From a virus, in IMG/VR virus record IMGVR_UViG_3300009593_000110, positions 1 to 25,435 of that record: a stretch of DNA of 25,435 nt, one strand, 5' to 3'. Of this stretch, positions 1,757 through 14,973 are shown in pieces; positions within the stretch are counted from its first letter, which is position 1, and every line of letters begins with the position of its first letter. The translations under genes were made by a program, and so were the position numbers. The notes beneath the pieces were generated by a model. It did no database searches, was not told the origin of the DNA, and saw only the letters and a program-made list of their open reading frames with translations.

Positions 1757-2451
1757 AACTGTATAACAACGATTGTTTAGAAGTGATGAAAGAATTACCA
1801 GATAATTCTGTTGATCTTATAATAACTAGCCCACCCTATGAGGACATATCTGGAGCTGGTTACAAGGCCAGCAAAAAAGATATTTTGTTTTTGAAACTAT
1901 ATTCAGAATTTATAGATCAAGTGTTCGATCAATATCAGCGTATTCTCAAAGATGGTGGACAATTGTTTTTTAATATAAAAAGCAAGACTGCTAACAAAAC
2001 ATTGAGAACACCCCACTGGTTAGAATTTACAGACGCTTTCCAAAAGTTAGATTTCAAAAGTTATATTATATGGAAATATTCAGGAAGCTTTGACAGTACT
2101 AAATCAAGATTTCACTTAGATTACGAAATTATATATCACCTATCAAAAGGAGATCAAATCTATCTCAATTCAGATTGTGGAATTGATGATCCGTTAACAT
2201 CAGTTTGGTATGTTCCACACAATATTCCTAAAGCAGAGAGGGTACACCCTACTCAAATGCCTATAGCTTTAGCTGAAAGAATTTTGAAAATTGCAAGCAG
2301 AGAGGACGATCTAGTCTTAGACAATTTTATGGGAAGTGGAACAACTGGTGTTGCTTGTAAACAAATGGGTAGAAATTTTATTGGAATAGAGTTAGACGAA
2401 AATAATTTTCAAATAGCACAACAAAGAATAGGGGAAAGTATTTTTGGATGA
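1753..2451 (+). CDS. Beta-class DNA amino-methyltransferase 2
   Basis: This is a 232-residue methyltransferase with N-terminal NDCLEVM, the catalytic TSPPYED motif and, near the C terminus, HPTQMPIALAERI followed by the cofactor motif DNFMGSGTTGVAC. The class is the same as the preceding protein, but sequences between the motifs differ, so it probably has a different target. I chose the TTG at 1753: it overlaps the upstream TGA (TTGA, 1753-1756), GGAAAGG lies about 7 nt upstream, and translation gives MKLYNNDCLEVM, the usual start of such enzymes. An in-frame TTG at 1732 would add seven residues. The stop overlaps the next ATG (ATGA, 2448-2451). Confidence 0.9.
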   Translation: MKLYNNDCLEVMKELPDNSVDLIITSPPYEDISGAGYKASKKDILFLKLYSEFIDQVFDQYQRILKDGGQLFFNIKSKTANKTLRTPHWLEFTDAFQKLDFKSYIIWKYSGSFDSTKSRFHLDYEIIYHLSKGDQIYLNSDCGIDDPLTSVWYVPHNIPKAERVHPTQMPIALAERILKIASREDDLVLDNFMGSGTTGVACKQMGRNFIGIELDENNFQIAQQRIGESIFG

Positions 2452-4061
2452 AGTTAGGTAGTATGTTTTCAGGTATAGGCGGTATTGAACTGGGTTTGAT
2501 GAGATCTGGTTTAGTGTCTAAAGTTGCTTGGCAAATTGATACAGATGAATACTGTACAGATGTCTTAAAAAAGCAATTTCCAGACTCGTTAGTTCTGAAT
2601 AAAAAAGTAGAAGATATAAACACTAAATATTTGCCAGAGGTAGATATCATTAGTGCAGGGTTTCCATGTCAGCCAGTTAGCGTTGCTGGAAACCAGAAAG
2701 GAGTATTAGATGAAAGATGGTTATGGGATGAAGTCGAAAGATTTATTAATGAGTTACGACCACCAATCTTCGTCTTGGAAAATGTCCCAAACATCCTCAG
2801 AGCAAGCAACGGAGAAGCCATTAACCGTGTCCTCAAAGGTGTGGCCGAAATGCGGTATTATAGATTCGAGTGGCAACTTATATCAGCAAAATTCGTTGGA
2901 GCAAGGCACAAAAGACAAAGATGGGTGGGAGTTGGAATCGTGGGAGACCCCAAACACTATGGATCACTTAGAGCCGAGATCAGGAGAGGCTTTGGAGAAT
3001 GTGCTGTATCGTGGAGATCCAGAGAGGAAGAGCAGAAGAAAAGGTACTGGAAACTTGAGAGAGAATCCGAAACTTTGGTTGACACCTACAACAATGGACA
3101 AGAAGGACGACTCGTTGAAACACGCAACGAAACTTATGCAGGGGAAAACGAGGAGATCAACAGGTCACAGAGTTCAAAGGACACTATCGGATCAAGTGTG
3201 GATGGATATGATAGAGAAGGATCCAACGCTAATGGAATTTTACCAAGATCACGAAATGATAGTGAGACCTCTTCTACCAGAACAACAGGAATGGGTGGAA
3301 TATCTGAGAAGTCAGACAACAGCGACAGAGATGCACAAATTGACAGGAATAAAGAAAACAACAGTGGATCATTGGTTCAGGAGGGACGACAAGGGTTTCA
3401 GTTATCCGAGTCTAGAGGATTGGAAGTTGATGAAGCCTCACCTCAAGGAAGTGAAGTTCGACAAAGAGATGACAACAGTGGAAGTGACGGAATGGACAGG
3501 GGACAAGGAAATGTGGCCGACACCATCGACACAGGACAACGAACATCTAAATCTGGAGCTGAACGAAAAGGGACGCAGGATAGCCAAGAATGGCGGAGAG
3601 GATCGATCTCTGAACCTAGCGGACAAAGTACAAATAAGGGAAACCTTTTCGACACCGAGAGCAAGTCAAGCAACGAAACCAGTAAACAAGAAAGCCCCAT
3701 CTGTAGCGAGTGGATCTCACGGATCTACTTTAGAAATGGATGTTGGGGAACGGAATCCAGAGTTGATTGGTCAAAGGCTGAATCCTCAATGGGTGAACAG
3801 ACTTATGGGCTTCCCAGATGGGTGGCTGGATTAGGCATGACTAATAGCTGGGGTGTTGACGATTTTTGGGAAAATGGGCTATCTAGAGTGAGAATTAGAC
3901 AAGATCAAGATATTGATCGATTAAAAGCACTAGGAAATGCTGTTGTACCACAGTTCATGGAGCTGGTAGGAAGGCTCGTAATTAAGTCAATTATTGAAGA
4001 TAATTTAGTTTTTAATAGTGAAATTCTTGAAAAAAAAGTGGAAAAAAGTGAAAAAAAATGA
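2448..4061 (+). CDS. C5-cytosine DNA methyltransferase with overprinted central region
   Basis: This 537-residue protein carries the C5-methyltransferase motifs in order: I (FSGIGG, 7-12, cofactor), IV (GFPCQPVS, 71-78, catalytic Cys74), VI (ENVP, 111-114), VIII-like (RHKRQRW, 153-159) and X (ALGNAVVPQ, about 494-502). The target recognition domain normally sits between VIII and IX. Here residues about 170-450 are a hydrophilic, low-complexity S/G/D/E/R/N-rich stretch with repeats such as LVDT and NVADT. Exactly this stretch is also read in the +1 frame by a second long gene (2710-3834), which explains the odd composition and the locally higher GC. ATG 2448 overlaps the preceding TGA. The uninterrupted frame and intact motifs argue for an active enzyme. 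How it recognises its target is unclear. Confidence 0.9.
   Translation: MKLGSMFSGIGGIELGLMRSGLVSKVAWQIDTDEYCTDVLKKQFPDSLVLNKKVEDINTKYLPEVDIISAGFPCQPVSVAGNQKGVLDERWLWDEVERFINELRPPIFVLENVPNILRASNGEAINRVLKGVAEMRYYRFEWQLISAKFVGARHKRQRWVGVGIVGDPKHYGSLRAEIRRGFGECAVSWRSREEEQKKRYWKLERESETLVDTYNNGQEGRLVETRNETYAGENEEINRSQSSKDTIGSSVDGYDREGSNANGILPRSRNDSETSSTRTTGMGGISEKSDNSDRDAQIDRNKENNSGSLVQEGRQGFQLSESRGLEVDEASPQGSEVRQRDDNSGSDGMDRGQGNVADTIDTGQRTSKSGAERKGTQDSQEWRRGSISEPSGQSTNKGNLFDTESKSSNETSKQESPICSEWISRIYFRNGCWGTESRVDWSKAESSMGEQTYGLPRWVAGLGMTNSWGVDDFWENGLSRVRIRQDQDIDRLKALGNAVVPQFMELVGRLVIKSIIEDNLVFNSEILEKKVEKSEKK
2697..2703 (+). promoter_or_regulatory. Ribosome binding site inside the C5 methyltransferase gene
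   Basis: AAAGGAG (2697-2703), six nt (TATTAG), then ATG at 2710. This near-perfect Shine-Dalgarno lies within the methyltransferase reading frame and is placed optimally for the +1-frame gene. It is the main reason to believe that gene is translated. Confidence 0.75.
2710..3834 (+). CDS. Overlapping gene nested in the C5 methyltransferase (+1 frame), WxTP-repeat/HTH protein
   Basis: This 374-residue ORF lies wholly inside the C5-methyltransferase gene in the +1 frame. It has its own AAAGGAG ribosome binding site six nt before the ATG. It looks like a protein rather than a shadow. There are four copies of a W/F-x-TP motif (WETPNTMD 78-85, WLTPTTMD 123-130, WPTPSTQD 269-276, FSTPRAS 313-319). 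A helix-turn-helix-like segment runs TATEMHKLTGIKKTTVDHWF (204-223), and the C terminus is LNPQWVNRLMGFPDGW (357-372). From memory, proteins with SWKTSQ, WPTPT and LNPEWVEWLMGFP motifs are common in phages and metagenomes and are often loosely labelled as methyltransferase, but I know of no established function. The WKMSQ motif here is encoded by the same bases as the enzyme's ENVPN motif. Co-expression suggests a partner, perhaps helping target recognition; this is speculative. Confidence 0.72.
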   Translation: MKDGYGMKSKDLLMSYDHQSSSWKMSQTSSEQATEKPLTVSSKVWPKCGIIDSSGNLYQQNSLEQGTKDKDGWELESWETPNTMDHLEPRSGEALENVLYRGDPERKSRRKGTGNLRENPKLWLTPTTMDKKDDSLKHATKLMQGKTRRSTGHRVQRTLSDQVWMDMIEKDPTLMEFYQDHEMIVRPLLPEQQEWVEYLRSQTTATEMHKLTGIKKTTVDHWFRRDDKGFSYPSLEDWKLMKPHLKEVKFDKEMTTVEVTEWTGDKEMWPTPSTQDNEHLNLELNEKGRRIAKNGGEDRSLNLADKVQIRETFSTPRASQATKPVNKKAPSVASGSHGSTLEMDVGERNPELIGQRLNPQWVNRLMGFPDGWLD

Positions 4062-4099
4062 AAAAAATTACGAAAATCCAAGTAAAAAAATGTTCAAAA
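4030..4099. promoter_or_regulatory. Helically phased A-tracts (predicted bent DNA)
   Basis: Seven A-runs of 4-8 bases are centred near 4033, 4044, 4054, 4064, 4074, 4087 and 4097, a spacing of about 10-12 bp or one helical turn. Such phasing produces intrinsic curvature. It begins in the last codons of the C5 methyltransferase and leads into a non-coding control region, as often seen at origins and regulated promoters. Confidence 0.6.
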
Positions 4100-4162: not shown

Positions 4163-4176
4163 TGTCACATGTGACA
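4163..4176. promoter_or_regulatory. 14-bp perfect palindrome, operator-like
   Basis: TGTCACATGTGACA is its own reverse complement. It is followed by a second GTGAC-T-GTCAC inverted pair (4180-4190). A -35-like TTGACT lies just upstream (4144-4149). The core GTCACATG recurs at 5600-5611 upstream of another gene with one mismatch in the palindrome. This is probably a binding site for a dimeric regulator. Confidence 0.5.
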
Positions 4177-4194: not shown

Positions 4195-4254
4195 TAGAGT
4201 AGAGTAGAGTAGAGAAGAGTAGATAAGACTAGAGTAGAGTAGACTAGAGTAGAG
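4195..4254 (+). repeat. Pentanucleotide tandem repeat (TAGAG, 12 units)
   Basis: Twelve consecutive 5-bp units keep phase without indels. Nine are TAGAG or a one-base variant ending in C or T; AAGAG and AAGAC variants are interspersed. The strand is almost entirely purine plus T. Two units equal about one helical turn, so the array presents the same face repeatedly. It ends just before the ribosome binding site of the gene at 4270. It could be an iteron-like protein binding array or a slippage-prone leader. Confidence 0.8.
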
Positions 4255-4957: not shown

Positions 4958-5003
4958 TTACCCTAAATTTAGAACAGATGGTCTATTATTGAAATGTCGG
5001 CTA

Positions 5004-5174
5004 CTAAACCGACTTCCTCCCATCATCGGCTGAATCTAACGGTTCAGCCTTTTCTTTTTTAAGTAGGGATTTTTCAAGAGCAAGATCTTTTCTAATTTTC
5101 TTTGCTAGTTGTCTTCTACTCTTTCTATTCATGTTTGGTGCATAGTCTTTTGAAATTGTAAATATTTTTTCCAT
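5004..5174 (-). CDS. Small basic minus-strand protein (56 aa)
   Basis: The minus-strand ATG at 5172-5174 opens a 56-codon frame ending with TAG at 5004-5006. The protein begins MEKIFTISKDYAPNMNRKSR and continues RQLAKKIRKDLALEKSLLKK, strongly basic and probably helical, with a short acidic end. The NRKxRR pattern is frequent near the start of small phage proteins. No SD is present, but TAGAAT lies exactly 6 nt before the ATG (5181-5186), the same leaderless arrangement as at other genes here. A bidirectional terminator lies at the correct end. It may be a nucleic-acid-binding protein; function unknown. It occupies most of an otherwise gene-free 400-nt gap. Confidence 0.55.
   Translation of the reverse strand: MEKIFTISKDYAPNMNRKSRRQLAKKIRKDLALEKSLLKKEKAEPLDSADDGRKSV
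5028..5060 (+). terminator. Second terminator-like hairpin
   Basis: GGCTGAA (5028-5034) and TTCAGCC (5043-5049) form a 7-bp stem with an 8-nt loop, followed by TTTTCTTTTTT. It lies within the minus-strand small gene, so it may act as a backup plus-strand terminator or be incidental. Confidence 0.5.
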
Positions 5175-5558: not shown

Positions 5559-5566
5559 TTTAAAAG

Positions 5567-5593
5567 GCTCTAGGTTCGCCTAGAGCTTTTTTT
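5567..5593 (+). terminator. Rho-independent terminator after thioredoxin
   Basis: GCTCTAGG (5567-5574) and CCTAGAGC (5579-5586) form a perfect 8-bp stem closed by a TTCG tetraloop and followed by seven Ts. Confidence 0.92.
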
Positions 5594-5599
5594 ATTTTT

Positions 5600-5634
5600 G
5601 TCACATGTAACGGATATACTACTAAACTAAAGTT
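5600..5634 (+). promoter_or_regulatory. Regulatory region with operator-like half copy and -10 boxes
   Basis: GTCACATGTAAC (5600-5611) differs by one base from the core of the palindrome at 4163-4176. Downstream are TATACT (5614-5619) and TAAACT (5623-5628); the latter is exactly 6 nt before the ATG at 5635. A shared regulator for both sites is possible. Confidence 0.45.
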
Positions 5635-5841
5635 ATGAAAGATATTGACGCAGAAGCAAGAAAAGTGGTTCTGAATTTAGATCACTTAATGGCACAAGTT
5701 GATTATGAATACAACAGACACCAATCTTGTCTTGTTTGTAAAGAGAAATATAAACATCATGAAGATGGATTACCTTGTATTTCTGACGATAAAAGGAAAA
5801 GGATAGTAAAATTTAATCATGGGAGACATACAAAGAGGTGA
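5635..5841 (+). CDS. Small Cys/His-rich protein, possible zinc binder
   Basis: This is a 68-residue protein with CLVC (Cys32, Cys35), HH (41-42) and Cys48 in the middle, spaced like a small zinc knuckle, and a basic C terminus ending HGRHTKR. It may bind nucleic acid. The start has no strong Shine-Dalgarno; a TAAACT hexamer lies 6 nt before the ATG. The 3' end overlaps the next gene by 23 nt. The family is not recognised. Confidence 0.65.
   Translation: MKDIDAEARKVVLNLDHLMAQVDYEYNRHQSCLVCKEKYKHHEDGLPCISDDKRKRIVKFNHGRHTKR
5807..5812 (+). promoter_or_regulatory. Internal -10 box before gene at 5819
   Basis: TAAAAT is 6 nt before the ATG at 5819, inside the preceding gene. The only SD-like run (AAAAGGAAAAGG, 5791-5802) is too far upstream. 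This fits a leaderless internal start. Confidence 0.35.
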
Positions 5842-6904
5842 GCTAGAAATAGCTTCAACACAATATATCAGTTTAGATTTAAGCGATGATCTAGAATACG
5901 AAGAGTGGTTACAAATAGGCGAAGCCCTCACTAATCAAGCAAAGCATATTATGTGGTGGCTTGGTGATTGGTGGAACTATGGAGATCGCAAGTATGGTGA
6001 ATTGGCTTCTCAGGCCTTAGACTTCGGAATACCTTATTCAACATTTAGCAACGCTGCTTATGTGTCTAATAAAATACCTTTAGAGAGAAGAGTCCCTGAA
6101 CTTTCTTGGACACATCATTTCGAAGTTGCTTATTTAGAAGATGATGAAAAAATAGATAAATTTTTAAAAGAAGCTAATGAAAATCAATATTCAGTTAGAG
6201 AACTTAGAGCTAATGTTAAAAAATCTAAAATAGAAGCTTTAAATTCTGAAAATAAAGATTTCAATATAGTTGAAAAAGCAGGTGTAAATTTAAAGACTTC
6301 TAATGTTTGGACATTTGGGAAACCAGACAGCTCCTACGGTTTAGATCAACCATTTAAAACACCGCCTCAAATGATAGCTAACTTACTTTACTGGTTCACA
6401 GTTGGCGGTGAAAAAACAATTGTAGATCTTACAGACAAATACCAAGTAACTTACGATCTTGGAACAAAGCTTGATTATGATGTTTCAAGTTATGATCTGA
6501 ATCCTGCAAGAGGTACTAAAAAAGTAATGCCAGCAGATTTTTCTGTAAGTGAACTTCCAAAAGAGATCAAAGATGCAGATATTGTTATTTTGAACATGTT
6601 AGATTTTATTGATGATCCAGACGATCTTGATCCATCTGCTTTTCAAAGGCAAATGATTATAGATTTAGGTGTTGTTATGAAAAAAGGGGCTAAATTGTTC
6701 CTAATTACTAAAGATCTAGATGATATGAAGTTGGAAAACCTATTTAGTCTTATTTATGGTGAAAATGATTTTGCTGTTAATGAATTTATATCTACTACCA
6801 ATAAACACGCATATCACAAAGATGATGAAGCTTTTGCTATAAGAGACAAAATATTGTTAGATAAGCTCGCATATATATTAGTTCTCGAAAACCAAGCAGA
6901 ATAG
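5819..6904 (+). CDS. Two-domain protein: LmbU-like N-terminal region plus degenerate methyltransferase-like domain
   Basis: 361 residues. The N-terminal half (about 15-135) contains EEWLQIGEAL, IMWWLGDWWNYGDRKYG (44-60), a helical stretch and LSWTHHFEVAYL ... YSVRELRANVK. This matches the pattern of actinobacterial DNA-binding proteins often annotated as LmbU-like or ParB-like regulators. The C-terminal half (about 163-350) begins VWTFGKPDSSYGLDQPFKTP and has TPPQMIANLLYWFTVGGEKT, then YDLNPARG (225-232). The same order occurs in DNA methylases with DPMAGGGTT and DPPYW motifs. Here those motifs are replaced by DLTDKYQVTYD (203-213) and LNMLDF (258-263), so cofactor binding and catalysis are probably lost. 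It may be a regulator or packaging-related DNA-binding protein; it sits just before the large terminase. Family assignment is from memory. Confidence 0.6.
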   Translation: MGDIQRGELEIASTQYISLDLSDDLEYEEWLQIGEALTNQAKHIMWWLGDWWNYGDRKYGELASQALDFGIPYSTFSNAAYVSNKIPLERRVPELSWTHHFEVAYLEDDEKIDKFLKEANENQYSVRELRANVKKSKIEALNSENKDFNIVEKAGVNLKTSNVWTFGKPDSSYGLDQPFKTPPQMIANLLYWFTVGGEKTIVDLTDKYQVTYDLGTKLDYDVSSYDLNPARGTKKVMPADFSVSELPKEIKDADIVILNMLDFIDDPDDLDPSAFQRQMIIDLGVVMKKGAKLFLITKDLDDMKLENLFSLIYGENDFAVNEFISTTNKHAYHKDDEAFAIRDKILLDKLAYILVLENQAE

Positions 6905-6929: not shown

Positions 6930-8153
6930 ATGGCAACTAAAATATTACAAACACAATTTCCTGATCTCCATGAGGCTCAATTAAAAGTAGCTCAATCAGA
7001 AGCTAGGTGGAAGATATTATGTGCTGGAAGACGATTTGGAAAAACTCGTTTAGGTGTACAAATGTGTTTAGAAACTGCTTTAGCTGGTAAAAGGGCTTGG
7101 TGGGTAGCACCAACATATACAATTGCTAGAGTTGGGTGGCGTGATATTCAAGAAGCAGCCAGATCTTTTCCCCCAGAATATGAACCTAATATTTCACTTG
7201 TGAATATGGAAGTTAGTTTCCCCTGGTGTGGTGGGTCAATTGCTGTTAGATCAGCAGATAGTCCACATAGATTAAGAGGTGAGGGTCTCGACTTTTTAGT
7301 AATGGATGAGGCTGCTTTCACTAAGCCTGATGTTTGGCATCAAGTATTAAGACCTACTCTTACAGAGAGAAAAGGTGGAGCTTTATTTATATCAACACCT
7401 ATGGGTATGAATAACTGGTTTTATGAATTGTGGGAATTTGCAGATGATAAGCCAGATTGGGAAAAATTCCAATTTGCTACCTACGATAATCCAGCTATTG
7501 ATAAAGATGAAGTAGAACAAGCAAAAGGCGAAGTTGGATCAATAGTTTTTGCACAAGAATATTTAGCTGAATTTGTAGAAGCAGGACAAGGTTTACTAAA
7601 ACCTGATTGGTTGCACTATTTTAAAGAAAAAGGTGGTGTATTTTTTGCAAGTGGTGAAAATGTTGGTTTGCGTGATTGTTCTAGGTTTTGTACTGTAGAC
7701 CTTGCTACCTCAATTCAAGAAGGAGCTGACTATACTGTTATAGCAAGTTTTGCAATAACACCGAAGGGAAAAGTTTTGGTGCTAGATGTAGTTCGTGAAC
7801 GCATGGAAGCTCCTGACATTATCCCTCGAATAAGACAAAAAATGGCTCAATATGATTTACAATGGGTAGGTATGGAAAGAGCTGGTTTTCAGCTTTCTCT
7901 TATACAATTTGCTAAAAGAGACGGTTTAGCAGTGAAAGAACTAAGAGCGGACAAAGATAAAGTTTCTAGAGCTATGCCACTCGCTGCTCGTATGGAAGCA
8001 GGAGATGTATTCTTCAGGCAAGGCGCACCTTGGCTAGTGGAAGTTGAAAGAGAACTTATGAGTTTTCCAGTTGGATCTCATGATGACATAGTAGACGCAC
8101 TAGGTTATGGAGTGTTAAGCGCACAAGCTAAGAGAGAATGGACGGCTTACTAA
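6930..8153 (+). CDS. terL: Terminase large subunit
   Basis: This 407-residue DNA-packaging motor is an ATPase-nuclease. Walker A AGRRFGKT is at 32-39, and Walker B DFLVMDEA at 121-128 with catalytic Glu127. A coupling-type segment, FISTPMG (153-159), follows. The C-terminal RNase H-like nuclease has acidic residues in TVDLATS (Asp257), ADYTV (Asp267) and HDDIVDA (384-390). It translocates phage DNA into the prohead through the portal and cuts it. The ATG at 6930 has no Shine-Dalgarno but has a -10 box 6 nt upstream. The stop is directly adjacent to the portal ATG. At 407 residues it is at the short end of the family, but all key motifs are present. Confidence 0.95.
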   Translation: MATKILQTQFPDLHEAQLKVAQSEARWKILCAGRRFGKTRLGVQMCLETALAGKRAWWVAPTYTIARVGWRDIQEAARSFPPEYEPNISLVNMEVSFPWCGGSIAVRSADSPHRLRGEGLDFLVMDEAAFTKPDVWHQVLRPTLTERKGGALFISTPMGMNNWFYELWEFADDKPDWEKFQFATYDNPAIDKDEVEQAKGEVGSIVFAQEYLAEFVEAGQGLLKPDWLHYFKEKGGVFFASGENVGLRDCSRFCTVDLATSIQEGADYTVIASFAITPKGKVLVLDVVRERMEAPDIIPRIRQKMAQYDLQWVGMERAGFQLSLIQFAKRDGLAVKELRADKDKVSRAMPLAARMEAGDVFFRQGAPWLVEVERELMSFPVGSHDDIVDALGYGVLSAQAKREWTAY

Positions 8154-10920: not shown

Positions 10921-10929
10921 TTGCGCTAT

Positions 10930-12291
10930 ATGTCTGAAGAAAAAAAAGAAATCGAATTTGAACTCAAAGGCGATGGGAAAAATAAAGGTCAAGTTGAAGC
11001 AGTATTTTCAGTCTTCAATGATATCGACAGTGATGGTGATGTAGTATTACCTCACGCAATAAAATCAGGATTTAAATCAGGAGATGTTCCAATGGTTTGG
11101 TCTCACAAGTGGGATATGCCAATTGGTAAAGGTTCAATTAAACAAGACAAATCAAAAGCTACATTTGTAGGCGAGTTCTTTATGGATACAGAATCTGGTA
11201 AAGAGGCTTATAACCTAGTTAAGAATATGGGAGATCTACAGCAATGGTCTTTTGGTTTTCAAGTAAACGATTCAGAATATGGAAAACACAAAAAAGATGG
11301 AAGCGAGGACGAACAAGATGTTAGGTATCTCAAAGATCTATCAGTTTATGAAGTCAGCCCAGTACTTGTCGGTGCTAACCAAGATACTTTCACAATGGCG
11401 ATTAAAAGTGACAAAAAAACTGAGGCAAAAATTGTCGAATCCATTACTTTATCTCACGGTGCAGATGATGGAGTGGATGAGGAAAAAGGTGTACTTGGTC
11501 ACGATTCTTTCGAAAAGGAAGAACCGCAAGGCGAAGTAGAAGTTGATCCAGCAGGAGAGCTTCTCGGAGACATCGCAGAAGATATGAAAAAAGTTTTGAA
11601 AAATATGCCAGAAGGTAGCCAACTTAATTTGGCCTCTTTAGATCAACTTAGAAAAGTTGCTAAAGGCATGAAAGAAGTAATAGATTTAATGATTGATCCA
11701 GATAAAAAATCTGATGATCAACAAAAAGTTTCAGAAGAGGGTGCCAGCGTGCAAGGCAAACGCTTTTCTGATGAGGTAAAAGATGTGCTTGCAGCATTAA
11801 ATAACCTCGTTGCCAGAGTTCAATCTATAGGAGAACTCAGGAAAAAAAATGGAAGGAAGTTGGGAGCGTCAGCAACAGATGCTCTCAGAGCAGTTCAAGA
11901 AAGCGTCCAAGATGCTTTTAGTGAACTAGATAAATTCGTAGATGAATTTGGATCGGAGGGTACATTGGAAACGGAAACACAAGTAGTGGATGAAGTTGAA
12001 GTACAAGAAGTAGAAGCAGAAGTAGAAGCAGAAGTAACTTCAGAAGTTGAAGTAGAAGCAGAAGTCGCAGACAACCCTGTTGAGGAAACTCAAGGTAGTA
12101 CCGTTGAAGCAACTGATGAAGAAACAGAAGTTGAAGAAGTAGAAGAAGCGGAAGCTGAAGCAGAAGTTCCTGTAGAGGAAACTTCAGAAGCAACAGAAGT
12201 TGAAGTGGATGATGAGTTGGATAGTCTTTGGCTTGAAAGTCAACAGACTTTAACTGAAACTATATTAACCGACATAGAAATAGAAGAATAA
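10930..12291 (+). CDS. Prohead maturation protease (HK97 family) with acidic C-terminal extension
   Basis: The protease domain occupies roughly the first 160 residues: VEAVFSVFNDIDSDGDVVLP, then VWSHKWDMPIG with the catalytic His, and LQQWSFGFQV with the catalytic Ser, the usual His/Ser pair of phage prohead serine proteases (S78-type). It cleaves scaffold and capsid delta domains during head maturation. The family is usually about 180-250 residues; this protein has some 290 more. These include a helical region and a Val/Glu-rich acidic tail (nt about 11990-12200), possibly a fused scaffold-like segment. ATG 10930 gives MSEEKKE; an in-frame TTG at 10921 lies closer to the GAGGAG ribosome binding site (10911-10916) and would add three residues, so the start is uncertain. 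Confidence 0.92.
   Translation: MSEEKKEIEFELKGDGKNKGQVEAVFSVFNDIDSDGDVVLPHAIKSGFKSGDVPMVWSHKWDMPIGKGSIKQDKSKATFVGEFFMDTESGKEAYNLVKNMGDLQQWSFGFQVNDSEYGKHKKDGSEDEQDVRYLKDLSVYEVSPVLVGANQDTFTMAIKSDKKTEAKIVESITLSHGADDGVDEEKGVLGHDSFEKEEPQGEVEVDPAGELLGDIAEDMKKVLKNMPEGSQLNLASLDQLRKVAKGMKEVIDLMIDPDKKSDDQQKVSEEGASVQGKRFSDEVKDVLAALNNLVARVQSIGELRKKNGRKLGASATDALRAVQESVQDAFSELDKFVDEFGSEGTLETETQVVDEVEVQEVEAEVEAEVTSEVEVEAEVADNPVEETQGSTVEATDEETEVEEVEEAEAEAEVPVEETSEATEVEVDDELDSLWLESQQTLTETILTDIEIEE
11991..12200 (+). repeat. Low-complexity GAAGTAGAAGCA-type coding repeat
   Basis: Imperfect tandem copies of GAAGTAGAAGCA and variants encode the Glu/Val/Ala-rich tail of the prohead protease. The copy number could change by slippage. 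The minus strand shows a Leu-rich open frame that is only a shadow of this repeat. Confidence 0.75.
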
Positions 12292-14540: not shown

Positions 14541-14710
14541 TGGATTTGGTTACATACACTTACCTTATCGGTTTCTTAAATTACCACGGTCTAATATCAA
14601 CTCATCTCAACGAATACGCACGAGAGCGTGTATTTCAGGAAGATCTAATTGCTAGAAAATTTAGTGAAATAATAGCAGGTGAGGAATGGAATATAAGGAA
14701 GAATCTCTAG
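14540..14710 (+). CDS. Small hypothetical protein (56 aa) between connector and WhiB
   Basis: A 57-codon frame starts at ATG 14540, overlapping the connector stop (TAATG), and ends at TAG 14708-14710, overlapping the WhiB gene by 25 nt. The protein begins MDLVTYTYLIGFLNYHGLIS and continues with THLNEYARERVFQEDLIARK. The N terminus is hydrophobic and could be a short membrane or packing helix; the rest is a charged helix. It fills what would otherwise be the only sizeable gap between these genes. Tight coupling on both sides supports it. No family is recognised. Confidence 0.55.
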   Translation: MDLVTYTYLIGFLNYHGLISTHLNEYARERVFQEDLIARKFSEIIAGEEWNIRKNL

Positions 14711-14973
14711 GGAATCTACTTAGACTACAAGAACTTTGGTGGCAAGATGACGCCAAATGTAAAGACGAAGACCCAGATTTATTTTTTCCAAATCGTGGAG
14801 CTTCTACTCGAAAAGCTAAACAAATTTGTGGTGAATGTCCAGCTCAAGAACATTGTTTAGAGTATGCAATCATTAATGCTGAAAAATTCGGTATTTGGGG
14901 TGGTTTATCTGAAAGGGAAAGAAGAAAATTAAGAAAAGAACGAGGACTTACAAGAAAGAGGAGCAGTGCCTAG
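14686..14973 (+). CDS. whiB: WhiB-family transcriptional regulator
   Basis: This is a 95-residue WhiB-like protein. Four cysteines, Cys25, Cys48, Cys51 and Cys57, have C-x22-C-x2-C-x5-C spacing and ligate a 4Fe-4S cluster. The DPDLFFP motif precedes them, and GIWGG (69-73) is followed by a basic C-terminal tail that contacts DNA. In Actinobacteria these proteins bind region 4 of the main sigma factor and redirect RNA polymerase; some phage versions repress host whiB genes. AGGTGAGGA lies directly before the ATG. The gene is within the structural operon and overlaps both neighbours, so it is probably made late. Its presence is the best host clue in the window. Confidence 0.95.
   Translation: MEYKEESLGNLLRLQELWWQDDAKCKDEDPDLFFPNRGASTRKAKQICGECPAQEHCLEYAIINAEKFGIWGGLSERERRKLRKERGLTRKRSSA

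Follow-up and report, generated by a model that had tools for sequence, protein, structure and literature searches.

What does a phage protein do when it joins a DNA-binding domain to the apparent remains of a DNA methyltransferase and is encoded immediately in front of the large terminase subunit (TerL)? The locus that raises this question lies in virus record IMGVR_UViG_3300009593_000110, a stretch of 25,435 bases that is here called the window, and virus contigs were scanned for relatives. The open reading frame at 5819-6904 (plus strand, as for the domains, motifs, neighbouring genes, repeat array, half-site and hairpin described below) starts with ATG, encodes 361 amino acids and ends 25 bp ahead of TerL (6930-8153). 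An earlier note on this DNA had placed the gene at that position and had described its product as an LmbU/ParB-like protein fused to a dead methyltransferase domain, the enzyme fold having been kept for another job such as packaging-site recognition; the strings it quoted from the protein (TPPQMIANLLYW, YDLNPARG, DLTDKYQ and LNMLDF) are all present. On the basis of predicted structures, we consider it very probable that the protein consists of a ParB-type head (residues 18-149; 5870-6265) and a tail with a catalytically degenerate class I methyltransferase fold (residues 157-361; 6287-6901).

The likeness of the head to LmbU and ParB is borne out by both sequence and modelled structure. The NCBIfam LmbU family (NF038070) matches residues 18-149 with an E-value of 2.1e-27 and 96.1 bits, under the curated cut-off of 125 bits. 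Residues 1-151 were modelled from 32 heads (mean pLDDT 84), and the model was compared with known structures. Foldseek placed ParB, Noc and Spo0J proteins in the first 25 of 32 matches, with weak E-values of 0.07-3, and VIA-align placed them in the first 12 (Z 11.4-8.8 over 89-99 residues), the first match of another kind being Raf1 (Z 8.2). The shared fold spans residues 43-142, with Z of about 11 against the ParB/Noc structures 7ol9, 6y93 and 7nfu. From sequence alone the assignment is not clean, since DUF1016_N matches 17 of the 32 heads (best E 1.2e-6; 5.3e-6, under the cut-off, for the protein of the window) and HTH_ParB (PF17762) only 12 (best E 2.5e-5; a weak 0.065 for the protein of the window). 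When a profile of the heads was searched against PDB sequences, a cyclic-nucleotide-binding protein (E 0.2) ranked ahead of ParB 4umk (E 1.2). DUF1016_N was nevertheless rejected as the identity of the head, because the ParB/Noc assignment is better supported by the fold.

ParB/Noc proteins have a CTPase domain and bind a palindromic parS/NBS site, whereas the protein of the window lacks the CTPase and has a different candidate site. The ParB_N CTPase domain (PF02195) has no match in it at E-values up to 1, compared with 1.5e-9 for the ParB-methyltransferase fusion P0001, and the first helix of the head comes after only about 25 residues. Within the head, a predicted helix-turn-helix segment (residues 69-91; 6023-6091) ends in two arginines, R90 and R91, that are invariant in an alignment of 27 sequences (A1) and line up with arginines in two proteins annotated as LmbU homologues. 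According to the available portion of a study of LmbU (PMC6510168), the helix-turn-helix of that regulator (amino acids 80-102) binds DNA, R101 is required, and the protein recognises a palindrome and dimerises. LmbU regulators have a head homologous to that of the phage protein, and R101 may correspond to its arginine pair, but they carry no methyltransferase tail. The kinship of LmbU with ParB is not new, because the same portion of the study describes modelling on two Spo0J (ParB) templates. Given the modelled fold, sequence-specific DNA binding by the phage protein is likely.

The tail class was taken from fold and profile comparison, because single-sequence searches of the tail against Pfam, PHROGs and PDB sequences returned almost nothing. 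No Pfam methyltransferase family, including PF01555, matched the tail (E-values up to 1 for the window; 0 of 27 tails), and a profile search gave a weak match to T7 DNA polymerase and nothing else. The full-length model has a mean pLDDT of 80 (mostly 84-97 in the tail) and contains the Rossmann methyltransferase fold whose absence would have contradicted the earlier note. Foldseek matched this model to 169 PDB chains at E-values up to 0.001, with SAM methyltransferases on top (best E 5.5e-6), and VIA identified a class I methyltransferase fold in the tail (Z 13.6, 2.8 Å over 160 residues), methyltransferases occupying most of the 50 matches listed and a polyamine synthase appearing at rank 50. 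By hhalign, the tail is homologous to that of P0001 (E 7.2e-8, probability 94.6, 28% identity over 129 columns).

How general the loss of catalytic motifs might be was read from the homologues. Searching viral contigs with the protein of the window returned 45 loci: 37 full-length homologues (L002-L038), one cut short at the end of its contig (L045, 64 amino acids) and seven that match in the head only. The 37 loci represent 26 distinct proteins, which with that of the window make up the 27 sequences of A1 and are 41-86% identical to it. None of the 27 retains motif I (of the D-x-F/M-x-G-x-G type) or motif IV ([DNS]PP[YFWHI]), so the motif loss noted in the single sequence is conserved among the homologues examined. 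As a control, the same scan found both motifs in the two live neighbouring methyltransferases of this phage (MT1 and MT2), in the four ParB-methyltransferases P0001 and L051-L053, in L240/L241 and in L039/L044, and nine MT-A70-type fusions were found to have DPPW without such a motif I. Former motif I (6425-6457) reads DLTDKYQVTYD where a live enzyme has DPMAGGGSTLD, or DLTDSYGTTRD in L030-L032; former motif IV (6593-6604) reads N-M-L-D in the window and N-x-L-D in the group in place of DPPY, and its loop is shorter in a joint alignment with live tails. An intact alternative cofactor site, which the earlier note had named as evidence against its view, was sought and not found. We infer that the tail has lost methylation activity.

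The degenerate motifs do not have the appearance of neglected sequence. In the joint alignment, which comprises 13 representatives and six live tails, W164, F166, G174, D203, T211 and D213 are identical in 19 of 19 sequences, and Q184, N188 and P229 in 18 of 19; D203-x-x-D206, T211-x-D213 and N259-x-L-D262 do not vary among the 27 distinct sequences. When 10-residue windows of the 13 representative tails were ranked by conservation, former motif X (KTPPQMIANL; 6356-6385) came 1st of 193, motif I 3rd of 192, motif IV 19th of 195 and the end of strand 2 41st of 197. Values of dN/dS over 14 pairs were 0.03-0.24 for the tail and 0.02-0.18 for the head. Relaxed decay of the tail is ruled out by these low values together with the conserved former motifs; because purifying selection acts on the tail and former motifs I and X are among its most conserved parts, it appears to have been repurposed. 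The frame of the former pocket is, judged from the sequences, held under selection. Of the earlier proposal, the LmbU/ParB-like head, the retained fold and the motif loss are supported, while the packaging role suggested for it is weakened, as described below.

Fusions of DNA-binding domains with methyltransferases are themselves known; what is new here is the dead tail on an LmbU/ParB-type head, of which no description was found in the limited collection of literature searched. Phage fusions of a ParB CTPase with an N6/N4 methyltransferase have been surveyed before, as stated in the available part of that work (PMC12704722). Such proteins (MW202554.1 'parB', P0001) have a homologous tail with the motif order X-I-II-IV behind a DNA-binding module, but they possess the ParB_N CTPase and intact DPMAGGG and DPPY motifs, all of which the protein of the window lacks. 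The live version of this tail type is found on ParB-type heads in P0001 (by Pfam) and in L051-L053, L240 and L241 (by eye). Conversely, the LmbU-type head also occurs on MT-A70 tails (L040-L043, L046, L048-L050 and L156) and on N6_N4 methyltransferases (L039 and L044), with L039, L040 and L044 assigned by Pfam and the rest by DPPW and sequence likeness; these fusions share the head with the phage protein, but their tails belong to other, live methyltransferase types. That the head is shared with live methyltransferases suggests that it targets DNA for the tail. A search for intermediates, in which the LmbU head would be joined to a still-live version of this tail type, found none. Whole-protein and tail-only profile scans returned the same group, the former adding the head-only matches L048-L050, and no tail without a head was found with the tail profile, all 37 relatives lying in contigs of the same group. 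A homologue in a host genome was sought by scanning genome contigs with A1, which gave 44 pattern matches and no relative. With alignment A3, the best 80 of 179 relatives in genome contigs had mostly MT-A70 tails. Among five of these relatives that were read by eye, one has an LmbU-type head (L156) and four have ParB-type heads (L158, L160, L165 and L168), and MT-A70 methyltransferases of diverse bacteria carry LmbU-type or ParB-type DNA-binding modules interchangeably.

A candidate target for the head lies upstream of the gene. The sequence TGTCACATGTGACA (4163-4176, no strand assigned) is a perfect palindrome that resembles what we take to be the parS consensus; it is followed by two further GTGAC/GTCAC units and then by an adjoining array of 12 TAGAG-type 5-bp repeats (4195-4254). 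The window contains a single exact copy of the palindrome, and because allowing up to three mismatches yields 2 matches against 1.35 expected, weight is placed only on the exact copy and its conservation. The array is covered by 29 of the 38 loci (window included), and 20 of these 29 have the exact palindrome; it is missing in the other nine (L013, L015-L020, L033 and L038). A degenerate half copy, TGTCACATGTAACG (5599-5612), follows an intrinsic-terminator-like hairpin (5562-5591, by consensus match only) behind the thioredoxin gene and precedes a small ORF, the gene itself and TerL. Given the hairpin, the downstream genes probably begin a new transcription unit. The small ORF (5635-5841; 68 amino acids, with a CxxC motif) overlaps the start of the gene and is present in part of the group. 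In 27 of 38 loci a TGTCAC half-site is found in the 260 nt that precede the gene, and in 11 it is missing; it is present without the palindrome in the L018 group. Its spacing to a -10-like box varies between loci, and it may be a plain -35 element. Within the head, two sequences compared from the palindrome-less L013-L020 clade have I or V in place of H99, but this is a single event from which nothing can be concluded. The candidate site could also belong to another DNA-binding protein, such as the small terminase subunit (TerS).

The most satisfactory overall reading, to which we assign a probability of about one half, is that the protein is a DNA-binding regulator or organiser with a ParB-type head and a non-catalytic methyltransferase scaffold. 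Its observed basis consists of the two folds in predicted models, tail homology, motif loss in every homologue examined, purifying selection on the tail and fixed synteny. The tail would descend from an N6/N4-type DNA methyltransferase that lost motifs I and IV. The head, probably as a dimer, would bind a palindromic site, for which TGTCACATGTGACA or its half-site is the best candidate; the tail would serve as a scaffold that dimerises or contacts protein or DNA; and the protein would control or organise the terminase-structural operon that it heads together with the upstream repeat module. Of the jobs considered, regulating or organising the late region is the most likely, though we give it slightly less than an even chance. 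A role in partitioning has no direct support, the points in its favour being the ParB-type domain and the parS-like candidate palindrome only. The best-known methyltransferases that lost catalysis and took on other work belong to eukaryotic RNA methylation; METTL14-type pseudo-methyltransferases likewise keep a non-catalytic fold for a binding role. If the scaffold reading is correct, this phage lineage, in which every homologue examined has a dead methyltransferase domain frozen onto a DNA-binding domain of ParB type, would be a clear natural example of an enzyme turned into a DNA-bound scaffold or regulator, and the live relatives that share its head or tail, together with the candidate DNA site, make comparison possible.

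The genomic context bears on two other explanations. The gene is directly upstream of TerL in 37 of 37 full homologous loci, in the fixed order thioredoxin, gene, TerL; the palindrome and array resemble a nucleoprotein site between TerS and TerL, and in sister phages the array lies directly before TerL, all of which would suit a factor that recognises the packaging site (cos or pac) and acts with TerL. Yet a normal TerS is encoded at 1-570 (truncated by the contig end; phrog_4102, E 5.4e-31), and the protein has no TerS-like match; with this separate TerS and no PHROG match at E-values up to 1, the possibility that the protein is itself TerS was ruled out. Among the best 80 of 214 TerL relatives, 40 are at least 79% identical, 35 of them being contigs of the gene-bearing group, and in five loci at this level (L067, L070, L071, L075 and L084) TerL lies within 500 bp of the locus start. 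The other 40 are 58-65% identical and represent sister phages, and no homologue of the gene was seen in the upstream ORFs of 32 such loci or, by profile, in any of nine sister records, which are fragments searched without a positive control, such that absence from them is not proof. Because TerS is encoded elsewhere and the phages with 58-65% identical TerL appear to lack the gene, the protein does not look like general packaging machinery, and we consider a packaging-factor role decidedly unlikely. The main rival holds that the protein is a non-catalytic partner of a phage methyltransferase, bringing a live C5 (or N4/N6) enzyme to, or keeping it off, sites chosen by the head, much as METTL14 serves METTL3. 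The window encodes a C5-cytosine methyltransferase (2448-4061) and two live N4/N6 methyltransferases (1067-1756 and 1732-2451, together 1067-2451). Of 17 records that carry the gene, 16 have a C5 enzyme (PF00145), as against 0 of 9 sister records that lack the gene; the sole exception, L021, is a contig that ends about 1.3 kb upstream of the gene. For N6/N4 enzymes the counts are 10 of 17 and 0 of 9. A pseudoenzyme beside live enzymes of its wider class is a known pattern. The comparison nevertheless sets one clade against its sisters, so that common ancestry alone could yield the co-occurrence; N6/N4 enzymes were not found in seven of the 17 records, C5 enzymes belong to a different methyltransferase class, and we know of no precedent for the pairing of a dead N6/N4-type with a C5 methyltransferase. 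We judge this explanation unlikely.

The former active site itself suggests two further explanations, since its strict conservation could reflect a new activity or ligand instead of a scaffold. A ligand sensor, in which the former cofactor pocket binds SAM, SAH or a nucleotide and thereby switches the head, would account for the pocket-lining residues held in common with live enzymes (the six and three positions given above) and for motifs I and X being the most conserved parts of the tail. But the glycines of motif I have become K-Y/F-Q in most sequences and S-Y-G in L030-L032, a replacement that should spoil the usual SAM contact, and we regard this explanation as very unlikely. Still more doubtful is an active enzyme with altered chemistry on the D203-x-x-D206, T211-x-D213 and N259-x-L-D262 positions: their invariance in 27 of 27 sequences is what such an enzyme would require, but it fits a scaffold or ligand role equally well, and the tail has no known catalytic signature and no match to a methyltransferase family. 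Elements of several of these explanations could be combined, with the CTPase-free ParB-type domain anchoring on the palindrome and array and the retired methyltransferase acting as an effector that recruits or restrains the C5 enzyme or senses SAM. We think this combination rather improbable; if true, such a nucleoprotein system would tie DNA modification to late expression and packaging.

As for the host, a WhiB gene in the window (14686-14973) suggests an actinobacterium, and WhiB is also carried by published marine actinobacterial phages, according to the available portions of the reports (PMC3861242, PMC7771536). The host of this phage is thus probably a marine actinobacterium. A search for tRNAs found none.

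Several additional elements were observed in this region. In sister phages of the 63-65% group, TAACGCG-type repeats and a similar 5-bp array lie directly before TerL; because the array is present there beside another box, in phages where the protein was not found, it is not specific to the protein. Five-base arrays (of TAGAG and GATAA types, located before TerL in L086-L105) lie beside short repeated boxes in both phage groups, the boxes and their positions differing between the groups, and they possibly mark an origin, a packaging site or a centromere-like site. A conserved structured element at 4995-5059 consists of GTCGG...CCGACTTCCTCCCATCA followed by a covarying hairpin, whose seven pairs are 100% paired across 30 distinct sequences with 35 cells changed on both sides; an Rfam search, which included this element, returned no family match. 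The element lies directly before TerL in the sister phages L086-L105, and we can only guess at its nature, for example a packaging site or a small C-rich RNA. In many core loci (L003 at 375-384, L027 and L034, for example), a TAGTAAAAT-like box is found a few bases before the start codon, a position that suggests leaderless transcripts. The C5 methyltransferase gene harbours, in another frame, a nested ORF of 374 amino acids (2710-3834) that matches phrog_1008 'DNA methyltransferase' with an E-value of 2.1e-10. A nested ORF of 187-380 amino acids accompanies the C5 gene in all 27 loci, window included, where a script located that gene, and in L027 and L031 sequence resembling part of the nested frame of the window sits in the C5 frame. 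Short low-complexity repeats occur at 4031-4067, at the end of the C5 gene, and at 12006-12065, within the ORF at 10921-12291.
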